This document shows positions 2,276 to 6,376 of a DNA stretch of 29,084 nucleotides, piece after piece (positions within the stretch are counted from its first letter, which is position 1; each line of letters opens with the position of its first letter). This stretch comes from a virus, in IMG/VR virus record IMGVR_UViG_3300003177_000011, positions 1 through 29,084 of that record; one strand, written 5' to 3'. Under the pieces are notes generated by a model. It did no database searches and was not told the DNA's origin. It saw nothing but the letters and a program-made list of their open reading frames with translations. The translations under genes and the position numbers were made by a program.

Positions 2276-2554
2276 TTAAATATTTTCTTCAATAACATCC
2301 CATACAGAGTCAGCAACAAATGCTTTGCCACCACTTTGAGTGACTAAGTACTGATGATGCTTCTGTAATGCAGAGGTATTTTTCTTTTTTCCCTCAGCTT
2401 TAACTTCTATGCAGATGAATTTGCCATCAGCACAAACAGCTAAATCGCTAACACCGCTCTTATTTGCTCTTACAATCTTAATTACATAATAACCTTTATC
2501 TTCAAGGTATTTAATAATTTCAGACTGTATTTTGCTTTCAGATTTCTTTTCCAT
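2276..2554 (-). CDS. VRR-NUC domain nuclease (PD-(D/E)XK fold)
   Basis: A 92-residue stand-alone VRR-NUC domain. The active-site pattern is complete: Glu/Gln in the first helix (SKIQSEIIKYL), GVSDLAV with Asp37, then the strand FICIEVKAE with Glu50 and Lys52. Stand-alone VRR-NUC proteins in phages act on structured DNA such as Holliday junctions or flaps and are usually encoded beside an SNF2-type helicase, as here. Its AAGGT ribosome binding site lies 42 bases after the helicase stop. An 8-bp inverted repeat, AAACTTAA with TTAAGTTT (2574-2581 and 2588-2595), sits in that gap. Confidence 0.9.
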   Translation of the reverse strand: MEKKSESKIQSEIIKYLEDKGYYVIKIVRANKSGVSDLAVCADGKFICIEVKAEGKKKNTSALQKHHQYLVTQSGGKAFVADSVWDVIEENI

Positions 2555-2596
2555 AATGTATTTTACCTTAAGTAAACTTAAACAAGGTTAAGTTTG

Positions 2597-3971
2597 TTAT
2601 TTTAATGCCAACAATAAGTCTGACTGTACAGTATTCTTATCGCTTAAAACTCTCATTAGTCGCTCTTCAATTTCTCCAACAGCGATATGGAATATCCTAA
2701 CAACATCGCCTTTTTGTCCTTGTCGATGTAGTCGAGCATTAAATTGTAAGTACTCTTCAAGACTCCATGTTAAGCTAAACCAAACACAAGTATCTCCACC
2801 ATATTGTAAGTTTAAACCATGCCCTGCTGACTTAGGATGTACAAGTAACATTTTTATCTTGCCATCGTTCCAATCTTTAACAGCTTGACCTGCTTTATCC
2901 ATAACTACTGCTTTAGGAAAAGCCTTAATAAGTCGTTCTAACTCATGCTTATAGTTATATGCAACCAATAAGTTTGATTTAGGATTTTCATCAACTAATT
3001 CTTTTAATGTATCAAGTTTTAAGTCGTGGAAATGATGTACTTTTTTATGCTCATCATACATTGCTCCACCACAAAATTGTAACAATTTATTTGTTAATAC
3101 TGCCATACTCATCGCTGTAATATTTTCCTCCTTACTTATAGATAAGATTAAATCTTTTTCAAACTTATTATATGTTTTTAACAATTCGCCACTTAATTTA
3201 TTTGTTAAAATTATTGGTATTGCATCAGGTAGTTCAAGATAATCTTTAGCACTCATTGATAATACTAAATTAGATATTCTGTCTTGTATATCTTTAATTG
3301 CTCCGCCTTTTAGTTCATAGTTATATCCCATAAAGTCTCTATCAAAATATCGCAACCTGTAATCAGTTATAGTTCTACCAAGTCGTTCGCCCCTATCTAA
3401 TAAGTAAATTTGACTCCACAAGTCCATAAAACCATTCGATGCAGGTGTTCCTGTAAGAATTACTGTTTTAAATATTTTATGTAAAACAGACTTTAAAGCT
3501 TTAAATCTTTGTGAAGCATGAGACTTAAACGATGAGCTTTCATCAATAACAACCATGTCAAAATCCCATTTACCTTTCATTGCAACAACTAATGCTTTTA
3601 CATTCTCTCTATTTATTAAGTATATATCGCTACTTCGTTGTAACCCTTTTAACATATTGATTTTCCCACCACTTAAATTAGTAAATTTTAAGTGTTTTGT
3701 ATGTTCCCACTTAGTAGCCTCTTGTTTCCAAACAGAATTACATACTCGTAATGGTGCAATTATTAAGGTTTTACTTATTTCAAATCTATTGTGCATTAAC
3801 TCTTCAATGGCGGTTAAGGAACTTATTGTTTTACCAAGGTCAAAGCCCCATATCTAAAAATAAAGCTGAATTTTGAGTAGTTAGGATATGATTAACAGCT
3901 TTTTCTTGATACTCATGTAATTGCTCTTTTTTTAGAATGGGGCGACCTCCTTGTATTAAATTTTTATTCAT
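2597..3971 (-). CDS. SNF2-family (SF2) DNA helicase, frame interrupted within Walker A
   Basis: An SF2/SNF2 helicase of about 455 residues in two frames. The first part starts at ATG 3971, with GGAGGT inside the last codons of the HNH gene as ribosome binding site, and runs MNKNLIQGGR to LHEYQEKAVNHILTTQ, then LFLDMGL, stopping at TGA 3840-3842. The second part is open from 3841 and contains GKT (rest of motif I), TLIIAPLRV (Ia), VVIDESSSFK (II), LTGTPASNG (III), LLVAYNYKHELERL (IV), KSAGHGLNLQ (V) and FNARLHRQGQ (VI). Skipping 7 nt at CTT-TGAC-CTT would give the canonical DMGLGKT; a +1 shift would give DMGLDLGKT. If translation instead begins at the internal ATG 3796 the protein lacks motif I and should not hydrolyse ATP. 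Either recoding or a pseudogene is possible. Confidence 0.8.
3836..3848 (-). other. Candidate recoding site GGG CTT TGA C CTT
   Basis: On the minus strand the helicase reads GAT ATG GGG CTT TGA CCTT GGT AAA ACA. CTT TGA C is identical to the slip heptamer of the RF2 (prfB) +1 frameshift, and GGGG precedes it, though without the usual 3-nt spacing of the RF2 Shine-Dalgarno. CTT also recurs 7 nt later, so take-off on CTT before a stop and landing on CTT is a possible short bypass. Only the 7-nt hop restores the normal motif I. Confidence 0.45.
3872..3911 (-). repeat. 40-bp direct repeat, helicase copy
   Basis: Identical over 40 bases to 4461-4500. On the minus strand it encodes YQEKAVNHILTTQ of the helicase N-terminus. 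Identity stops sharply at the downstream edge, where this copy continues into helicase codons NSALFLD, and decays quickly at the upstream edge (LHEYQ here, LHTYQ in the other copy). Confidence 0.95.
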
Positions 3972-3972
3972 T

Positions 3973-4530
3973 TTATTTACCTCCATGATTTTTGTAGAAA
4001 CCGTATGTAGTCTCTGCTTTTTTTCTAACCTCAATAGCTTCTTTTTTTATACTATATGTACCTAAATATATAACTTTACCATCAACTTTAATTTGTGCAC
4101 ACCAGCGATTTGACTTTTTAATCAGGTACACTCCCATTGTCCCTGATGTATTTCTAGCAGTTAGTTTTTGGTTCCTACGATTGTCCTGTCTAGTAACTAG
4201 ACGCAGATTGATTAACCTATTGTCATCACGAATATGGTTAATATGGTCGATTTCCATACCTGATGGTATTTCATCATTGTAAATAATCCATATCAATCTA
4301 TGCACCATATACAGTTTACCGCTTATTTGAACTTGGCGATAACCTGAATGATGTTTTGAGCCAATCTCACTATATTGCAACGCTCTAGGGTTACGTGTGT
4401 ATTTGTTGTATAATTTACCTTTCTTGTATTCAAACATTTCTATAAGTGTTTCTTTATTCATTTGAGTAGTTAGGATATGATTAACAGCTTTTTCTTGATA
4501 GGTATGTAAATTATTTTTATCTAATTTCAT
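3973..4530 (-). CDS. HNH homing endonuclease with AP2 domain, fused to a helicase N-terminal fragment
   Basis: A 185-residue protein. Residues 1-23 (MKLDKNNLHTYQEKAVNHIL and TTQ) copy the helicase N-terminus; the endonuclease begins at the next Met. The HNH_3 motif follows: VHRLIWIIYNDEIPSG, then MEIDHINHIRDDNRLINLR with the His, Asp-His and Asn residues, then RQDNRRNQK. A C-terminal AP2-like DNA-binding domain is seen (GVYLIKKSNRWCAQI, IYLGTYSIKKEA). This is the usual layout of phage free-standing homing endonucleases. I chose ATG 4530, preceded by GGGGG, over the TTG at 4536. The start overlaps the polymerase gene, which is probably the ancestral helicase start. No ribosome binding site precedes the internal Met, so the fusion is likely what is made. 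The last codons hold the GGAGGT used by the helicase. Confidence 0.9.
   Translation of the reverse strand: MKLDKNNLHTYQEKAVNHILTTQMNKETLIEMFEYKKGKLYNKYTRNPRALQYSEIGSKHHSGYRQVQISGKLYMVHRLIWIIYNDEIPSGMEIDHINHIRDDNRLINLRLVTRQDNRRNQKLTARNTSGTMGVYLIKKSNRWCAQIKVDGKVIYLGTYSIKKEAIEVRKKAETTYGFYKNHGGK
4461..4500 (-). repeat. 40-bp direct repeat, HNH copy
   Basis: The second copy of the repeat, within the first 23 codons of the HNH reading frame. It is followed directly by the ATG of the endonuclease proper (ACT CAA ATG AAT AAA). The two copies bracket the HNH gene, marking it as an insertion into the helicase 5' end. Confidence 0.95.
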
Positions 4531-6376
4531 AATCAACCCCCAAGTTTTTTAAAGCTTCAATCGCTTCATCAAAATACCATTTATAATTTAATGTTTTAGG
4601 TACTTCCTCAAAAATATCCATCATCGGATAAGCACTGTCTGTTTTAGGTACTTTGTTACCGTTTAATTTGTATTTGATACAGTCAACTGAGCGAGTGTCA
4701 TAAATCCATCTAACCATCTTACCAAGATAGCTTTCGTTATAAACCCCACCACCTTTAACCGTTCTTGCCGATGCAAACTCATTTATATCTTTACATAAAC
4801 TGATAGTATCTTCAATAGGTGTGCCATCAAGCAAATACTCTCTGACTGCCTCATATACAATAGGTGTTGAGAGACCTTTTTTAAGACTTGTTTTACCATA
4901 CATACCCTTTGCTTTAACATAACCATCATAAACAGCGACATAATTATTTACATCTCTAGCATATAGTGCTTTATACTCATCATTCTCCATGTTATACCCA
5001 CTAACAAGTTCCAAGTCGAATATTATACTTAGAGCAAGGTTTGTCTTGTCTTTAGGACAATAGTATTCTATACCGTCAGTATTTGCACTAACAACACTAA
5101 TACCATTCAACTCCATTTGCTCAATTAACATTAATAGTGTTAATTGTCCTGTAAGTGTTGTCGCAAGGAGTAGGTCAGGAGAGTAAAGTTTTGAGTATTT
5201 AGAACCAAGCTTACCAAACGAACCGTTAATACAAATTTTTAAACTATCTGCTATCAACTCATGTTGTAGATACTCTTTTTCCAACTCTAAACTTTTATTA
5301 GTTTTTAATTCTGCTTTTATCTCTTTCATTCGTTTTTTAGATACAAGTCTATCTTCAACAATTTTTCCATAAACATCTAAAAACTTTTTCCCAAACTGTT
5401 TAGGATAAAGATTATTTACTATTATTATAAATGGATAATAGCTTGTAAAGTCTGCGTTTCGCATAACAAATTCATCATTGCTTTCAACAACCATAGACTT
5501 TTCTTGGGAGTGTAAACCACCTATTCCCATTTTATAAATTGTGTTACCTATTTTTATCTTTTTGTTTGACAACTCTTTAGGCATTTTTATAGCACCATTA
5601 CTTAATAAACTAAACTGTGTAGTATTAACTACTTCAAGTAGCTCATTAAGTTCTTGTGTTTCAAAAGATATATAATCAGGAGCATTATATGTTGGCTTAT
5701 ATGATATTGGAATATCAGGCTTAATAACATTAACACCTAGTTTTAACAACTCAGACACAAGTACTGTTTCTGCGATTTGAGCATCGCTTTTACTTCGTAA
5801 GTCTAAACCATATTGCTTACTCATATTTAATCGTAACTCAATTCTATTTTTAATACTTTCATACAAGTCAATAGTCACTTCTAAATCATTTAAGCAATAG
5901 GTTCGCAATGGGGCAACTTCATCAACATTAATAGGGTTGTGTGGGTCTAAATAAAAGTCTTGTAGCTTTTTAGACCCTATCCGTGTACCATAGTTTTTTA
6001 AAGAAATCATCACCGCAGGTGCAGGTTCGCTTATATCGAAATGGTCGTAAGCTCTTTCTCTTAAGTTTAAGTTACGGTAGGTTATAAAGTGTGGTTGGTT
6101 TTTTTCGATAATATCTTTTGATGTTTTGTAAATCATATTACAACTTGCACCACTTAAAGCATAGTTTAACAAGGGCATATCGTATTTGATTGAATTGAAA
6201 CCAAAAGAGGTGTTTGCTCTAAGTATCGTATTCAGTTTTGACTTATTTTCTTTAGTAAGTGTTGTTGACTCACCAAACATGTCAATTAATAATGTTCTAC
6301 CTGATTTTAAACCTTTTATTGCGACTAAAAAGTAATTAGGCAAAACTTCAATATCAAGTACTATTAAATTTTTCAT
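4517..6376 (-). CDS. Family B DNA polymerase with 3'-5' exonuclease
   Basis: The replicative polymerase, 619 residues, short for family B. Exonuclease motifs: Exo I Asp8/Glu10 (LDIEVLP), Exo II FGFNSIKYD (Asn61, Asp66), Exo III Tyr160 to Asp164 (YCLND). Polymerase motifs: YxGG-like GIGGLHS at 284-290, motif A DFTSYYP at 309-315, motif B KICINGSFG at 380-388, motif C ANTDGI with Asp434. Motif C has NTDG where many family members have DTDS; the metal-binding second Asp is kept, and I believe NTDGI is common in small phage enzymes. No terminal-protein gene is evident nearby, and the adjacent primase-helicase argues for RNA or DNA primers rather than protein priming. It is followed by the HNH/helicase locus with a short overlap. 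Confidence 0.92.
   Translation of the reverse strand: MKNLIVLDIEVLPNYFLVAIKGLKSGRTLLIDMFGESTTLTKENKSKLNTILRANTSFGFNSIKYDMPLLNYALSGASCNMIYKTSKDIIEKNQPHFITYRNLNLRERAYDHFDISEPAPAVMISLKNYGTRIGSKKLQDFYLDPHNPINVDEVAPLRTYCLNDLEVTIDLYESIKNRIELRLNMSKQYGLDLRSKSDAQIAETVLVSELLKLGVNVIKPDIPISYKPTYNAPDYISFETQELNELLEVVNTTQFSLLSNGAIKMPKELSNKKIKIGNTIYKMGIGGLHSQEKSMVVESNDEFVMRNADFTSYYPFIIIVNNLYPKQFGKKFLDVYGKIVEDRLVSKKRMKEIKAELKTNKSLELEKEYLQHELIADSLKICINGSFGKLGSKYSKLYSPDLLLATTLTGQLTLLMLIEQMELNGISVVSANTDGIEYYCPKDKTNLALSIIFDLELVSGYNMENDEYKALYARDVNNYVAVYDGYVKAKGMYGKTSLKKGLSTPIVYEAVREYLLDGTPIEDTISLCKDINEFASARTVKGGGVYNESYLGKMVRWIYDTRSVDCIKYKLNGNKVPKTDSAYPMMDIFEEVPKTLNYKWYFDEAIEALKNLGVDYEIR

Follow-up and report, generated by a model that had tools for sequence, protein, structure and literature searches.

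A putative programmed micro-bypass carried by HNH endonuclease cassettes in the Walker A motif of phage SNF2 helicases

How can a helicase gene that is interrupted by a stop codon in the middle of its Walker A motif still give rise to a helicase? This question is raised by the 29-kb viral record IMGVR_UViG_3300003177_000011 (hereafter the window, that is, the whole stretch of DNA that was analysed), on the minus strand of which all the window features described below are located. Here, the gene of an SNF2 helicase reads GAT ATG GGG CTT TGA C CTT GGT AAA ACA inside Walker A, the codons being ATG (3851-3849), GGG (3848-3846), CTT (3845-3843) and TGA (3842-3840), followed by a single C (3839) and then by CTT (3838-3836), GGT (3835-3833) and AAA (3832-3830). 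The first open reading frame (ORF1, 3843..3971) comprises 43 codons, from ATG at 3971 to CTT at 3843 (MNKNLIQGGRPILKKEQLHEYQ...LFLDMGL). The helicase body (2597..3841) begins with GAC CTT GGT AAA, is open in the +1 frame relative to ORF1 for 414 codons, from GAC at 3841 to the stop at 2597, matches the Pfam domains SNF2-rel_dom (9e-20) and Helicase_C (7e-7), and is 64-69% identical to its relatives. A preliminary description of this DNA had reported both the break by CTT-TGAC-CTT and the +1 continuation from 3841, and on both points it was correct.

The best-supported reading, to which we assign a probability of roughly two in three (0.68), is that a programmed micro-bypass within an HNH cassette keeps the helicase alive. 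ORF1 would be read as far as a take-off codon within Walker A (CTT in the window, GGY in most relatives), where a stop codon would enter the A site of the ribosome. The peptidyl-tRNA would then detach, slip by 4-9 nucleotides (nt) and re-pair immediately ahead of the Walker A codon that comes next; in the window the slip would span 7 nt, from CTT to the second CTT (3836..3845), and the joined product would carry the normal DMGLGKT. An mRNA stem, whose 5' arm lies near the start codon and pairs with nucleotides ending at take-off, may re-form behind the ribosome and aid this slip. The break itself would belong to a mobile DNA cassette consisting of an HNH gene, a substitute helicase 5' end and the gap; the HNH enzyme would have as its target the DNA that encodes Walker A, and bypass would cancel the cost of the gap. 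The idea of a bypass, together with a parallel to T4 gene 60 and mobE, had been put forward in the preliminary description. Both have gained from the comparative evidence.

The break is not peculiar to the window. About 50 further phage SNF2 helicases proved to be broken in this motif. Among tblastn matches in named phage records, the P-loop is broken in phiPaco (GGT TGAGA AAA), phi1605 (GGT TAGGA AAG), IMGVR_15682261 (GGT TAGGT AAG), NatCom_6392 (GGT TGAGC AAG) and NatCom_23091 with its near copy 29429 (GGT TGAC AAA, with an HNH gene directly upstream), whilst NatCom_38182 (GGT TGAAAAGGC AAA) was spotted through its length and split annotation. A pattern scan of viral contigs yielded at least 46 real helicases among the 80 loci listed; this pattern demanded TGA, so that stop choice and frequency are not to be read from this large sample, and the phage-record cases, selected independently of that pattern, are few. 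Throughout the wider set, DMGLG is followed by a gap of 4, 5, 6 or 9 nt starting with TGA or TAG, and then by KT; with the window included, gap lengths are 4, 5, 6, 7 and 9 nt, and the downstream frame is +1, -1 or 0. The gaps of the pattern-found loci and two of the phage records, several loci being near copies of one another, are TGAC (10), TGAGGC (7), TGAGC (7), TGAGGA (6), TGAGT (5), TGAGGT (5), TGACGC (4), TGAGA (3) and TGAT (1). In all alleles, TGA or TAG stands directly after CTT or GGY, and the flanking codons invariably add up to an unbroken Walker A (DMGLG + KT, or DMG + LGKT); in the case of NatCom_6392, QMGLG/KS is encoded by the flanks and by the intact sister alike. Three loci (L237, L279 and L281) are divergent members of a distinct SNF2 family (YLDMGLG / DDMGLG), all with a 6-nt TGACGC gap; an HNH_3 gene lies upstream of L279, and upstream of L281 there is an ORF with a different HNH-like motif (DRINNDGNYEPNNCRW). 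In public records, L121, L120 and L334 are each annotated as two items, a hypothetical protein of 29-31 amino acids and a truncated helicase whose start is doubtful. As separate observations, the lysine codon is AAA after all twelve 4-nt gaps (TGAC/TGAT) and mostly AAG after TGAGN(N) gaps, and a single extra G breaks the helicase Walker A of L183 at 2490-2510 (GGG TAA G), where either an error or another allele is possible.

Four loci, the window included, share the CTT take-off codon. Two of the others, L023 and L024, carry the closest homologues of the window's HNH gene (77% and 73% identical), in the same place, and read GATATGGGACTTTGACCT(T/A)GG with an identical stop and +1 continuation in helicases 64-67% identical to that of the window. 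The remaining one, L060, is an unrelated GC-rich phage helicase with a CTTTGAC break (GACGAGATGGGCCTTTGACCTCGGCAAA); it was found by pattern scan and is the sole real case for the pattern AAGGAGGT...CTTTGACCT. The window and these three loci have CTTTGACCTN in common, and CTTTGAC is invariant across them. Related helicases bear out the break as described: L023 and L024 carry CTTTGAC, whereas relatives without the HNH gene read through an uninterrupted DMGLGKT. Near the window's clade, 98 of the 101 helicase loci sampled are intact at Walker A. No near-identical allele, whether it had the 7 nt or lacked them, was matched by a DNA pattern search, and the 42 matches of a pattern scan of genome contigs were all due to chance, none falling in a helicase motif.

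Do the broken genes make protein? Over the 400-plus downstream codons, the ratio of nonsynonymous to synonymous substitution rates (dN/dS) is 0.03-0.18 for broken pairs with measurable dS (L270/L275, 0.033; L120/L233, 0.040; L211/L324, 0.041; L240/L251, 0.097; L231/L266, 0.184) and 0.03-0.13 for intact pairs, many pairs being saturated at synonymous sites. In a tree of the helicase body, obtained by a quick search, broken and intact copies are interleaved, with 15 changes, at least 12 of them forced by supported branches, and deep groups made up entirely of broken copies are also present. Since the downstream codons are under purifying selection between broken copies, and since all-broken groups run deep, the broken genes very probably make protein.

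As to how they would do so, gap skipping is, judged from the alleles, the only single event predicted to yield one common motif from every one of them. The rival that survives best, and which we nevertheless consider unlikely, is an RF2-type +1 frameshift at CTT TGA C, the other option of the preliminary description, with other frameshifts or readthrough in the other alleles and residues inserted in Walker A. CTTTGAC is indeed the prfB heptamer and is invariant in the CTT class, where the +1 product would hold Asp-Leu. However, the alleles would then need +1 shifts (4 and 7 nt), -1 or +2 shifts (5 nt) and readthrough (6 and 9 nt) at one and the same place, and would end up with different P-loops (predicted inserts D, L-S, L-R, X-G, X-R, D-L and so on), whereas intact relatives keep a constant G-x-G-K-[TS]. 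CTTTGAC is but one of several gap sequences, which cover all three phases, and the AGGGGG found three nt upstream of CTT in prfB, with its Shine-Dalgarno spacing, was not found here; the frameshift is therefore disfavoured.

A gene split in two, with the ORF1 peptide and an internally initiated body made separately, is less probable still. Phage genes with an HNH gene between their halves do exist, as in the DNA polymerase gene of L024, and 18 of the 56 alleles have a start codon before the Walker A lysine in the downstream frame. The other 38, including the window, have none, so that internal initiation cannot provide the lysine there and the ATPase would lose it; yet Lys-Thr and the residues after them are conserved in the broken set. 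In the +1 frame of the window, no ATG, GTG or TTG occurs at or before the lysine, the first one lying 36 nt past it. The L024 polymerase gene (2400-3160) is split by a different HNH gene and that of L052 (5990-6330) by an HNH remnant, each with a repeated polymerase coding stretch and a restart codon. Reinitiation at a TTG overlapping TTGA was also considered and set aside, as it fits most 5-nt gaps and not the others.

Candidate stimulatory structures at or 5' of take-off were found in the mRNA: a stem in the window, L023 and L024 (the trio) and a covarying helix in the GGY class, in which sequence near the start codon pairs with the last 9-20 nt before the stop. In the window, the 5' arm of the stem (3929..3949; GAGGUC.GCCCCAUUCUAAAAA) is formed by codons near the ORF1 start, and the 3' arm (3836..3860) consists of UUUUUAGAUAUGGGGC, a UUU bulge and GACCUU, ending at the take-off/landing site. 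The leader codons of the trio (QGGRPIL), which relatives lacking the HNH gene do not possess, pair with the stretch that reaches up to take-off and past the UUU bulge (GAGGUC.GYCCCAUUCUAAAA with UUUUAGAUAUGGGRC.UUU.GACCU), giving a consensus stem of -30.4 kcal/mol with one compensatory change, U-A to C-G in the window; z-scores are about -4.3 to -9, varying with the stretch folded, and -4.5 in the window. A separate stem, ending at the identical base, is found in L060 (z about -4). Of 42 genes of the GGY class, 41 have GGC as the codon that precedes Leu, whatever their base composition, and AAA never occurs at codon 2, which is always AAG or AGG. There, codons 2-4 (AAGUUCAUA) can form a helix of 9 base pairs with UAUGGGCUU, adjoining the take-off codon. 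Across 46 sequences (40 distinct), 94.4% of cells are paired against 91.8 +- 0.4 in shuffles (0/500), and double changes number 10 against 2.3 expected by shuffling (0/500), whereas at most 46% are paired when the partner is slid and 57% in seven intact sisters. RNAduplex z-scores differ between broken and intact groups (p 4e-5), the signal being weak per allele. By analogy with gene 60, re-folding of such a stem behind the ribosome may promote forward sliding. No signal was obtained for local or downstream structure around the stop, and, for the GGY class, base pairing between GGYTGA and UUCAUACC was rejected for want of compensation in L326.

The other component of the proposed cassette is the endonuclease gene. 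In the window, the order of genes is a B-family polymerase (4517-6376), an HNH_3 homing-type endonuclease (3973..4461; HNH_3 8e-17, with a weak AP2 match) and, directly downstream, the helicase. On either side of the HNH gene lies a copy of the helicase 5' end, the two sharing a perfect repeat of 40 nt (3872-3911 = 4461-4500), a feature that the preliminary description does not mention. One is a remnant of the native 5' end (MKLDKNNLHTYQEKAVNHILTTQ, 4462..4530), now fused to the HNH gene; the other is ORF1, which stands in for the native N-terminus and is matched by counterparts in both L023 and L024. In L023, the remnant first copy can be aligned (81%) with the native start of the helicase of L124, an intact sister, which indicates that the cassette supplied a substitute N-terminus. 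The HNH genes of L023 and L024 are preceded by a promoter-like TTGACA...TACAAT (3475-3524 and 3953-4004, respectively), unlike that of the window, which lacks this sequence and is fused to the remnant helicase start.

HNH motifs occur directly upstream of 10 of 43 testable broken genes and of none of 62 intact ones (Fisher 7e-5), detection being by sequence motif and the intact genes being drawn mainly from a different region of the tree from the broken ones; three representatives were confirmed as HNH_3 by Pfam. Most of these HNH genes terminate in GGDA-x-stop and overlap the start of the helicase. In many broken genes without an HNH gene, the upstream VRR-NUC gene ends in the same GGDA tail, which the intact sisters examined lack, and we interpret this tail as a scar left by an HNH gene since lost. 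The connection with the endonuclease next door, suspected in the preliminary description, is thus strengthened by these counts, by the trio and by the tails. The same Walker A is invaded by an intein-like insert (MGSGK^C ... HN^T) in the SNF2 helicase of Salmonella phage vB_SenS_ER18, a Jerseyvirus (L122, 1801-4266), which points to this motif as a target site for homing elements. By analogy with the T4 case, the gap would most likely shield the cassette-bearing allele from its own HNH enzyme. A group I intron was rejected, since the inserts are 4-9 nt long and no Rfam match (E <= 0.1) was obtained near the break in L001, L023, L024, L120 or L121.

If HNH enzymes cut here, the gaps might simply be dead alleles left by imperfect repair after cleavage, as the preliminary description had allowed. 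The HNH neighbours and an exact 5-nt tandem duplication in phi1605 (TTAGG) would fit, but purifying selection between broken pairs, deep all-broken clades, a stop codon first every time and conserved RNA pairing make random repair very unlikely. Least credible of all is its other null, a sequencing or assembly error: although the window is one metagenomic contig, the same 7 nt recur in L023, L024 and L060, GenBank phages with named hosts (such as phiPaco and phi1605) have analogous gaps, and for the class as a whole error is refuted.

Several points weigh against the micro-bypass. The landing triplet encodes the same amino acid as take-off in only 25 of 56 alleles, the others being one mismatch off (AGN, GAY, CGC). 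The regular TGA of the large sample was demanded by the search itself; the strong stem is confined to the CTT class; and the GGY helix contains several G-U pairs, has no strong folding z-score and owes part of its conservation to shared cassette descent. Moreover, the majority of broken alleles now lack an HNH gene, as does the entire contig of L060. We also favour, if with a little less assurance than for the reading as first stated, its broader form, in which widespread selfish HNH cassettes carry their own micro-bypass (4-9 nt, any phase, in-frame stop-hops included) in phage-helicase P-loops, driven by a long-range mRNA stem.

To our knowledge, T4 gene 60 is the lone well-studied bypass outside mitochondria, and no earlier report of a micro-bypass within an HNH cassette was found in the literature searched. 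If the micro-bypass is true, a set of about 50 phage genes from several host groups, their gaps measuring 4-9 nt, would represent natural short ribosome hops at large scale and a comparative system for what a minimal hop needs. Endonuclease-plus-bypass cassettes would amount to a general means of entry into essential motifs, and the annotation of these helicases as two fragments would be explained.

How, then, do these alleles compare with known recoding systems? With the prfB (RF2) frameshift they share the CUUUGAC heptamer, in the CTT class only; they differ in that the G-run (GATATGGGRCTT) abuts CTT within 0-1 nt and in that related alleles use other sequences and phases. In Magnusiomyces capitatus mitochondria, many small inserts in coding genes (byps) are corrected at translation (PMC5009743); the inserts described here are shorter, occupy a single site and have an HNH gene adjacent. 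The closest parallel is with T4 gene 60, where upstream stems that re-fold on leaving the ribosome reportedly favour sliding in the forward direction (PMC11194080), and where the insert, with mobE next door, is thought to protect against endonuclease cleavage (PMC5009743). Common to both are two ORFs joined out of frame, a stop directly after the take-off codon, a Gly take-off (here in most relatives), an upstream mRNA stem able to re-fold behind the ribosome, and an adjacent homing endonuclease gene linked to the gap. Unlike gene 60, the gap is 4-9 nt instead of 50, the landing codon is not always matched, the endonuclease is of the HNH family instead of mobE, and the gene hit is not a topoisomerase but an SNF2 helicase, in its P-loop, and this in dozens of phage lineages; gene 60 also has a KKYK-like nascent peptide signal, whereas no such signal is known here, where none was searched for. 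The N-termini of the broken helicases differ between families. Finally, a 2016 review of recoding knew of no natural in-frame stop-hop, although shorter counterparts of bypassing had long been presumed (PMC5009743). Synthetic constructs in Escherichia coli do hop over a stop between matched codons (cited in PMC5009743), and it is to the scale of these stop-hops that the 6-nt GGY TGA GGN alleles correspond.
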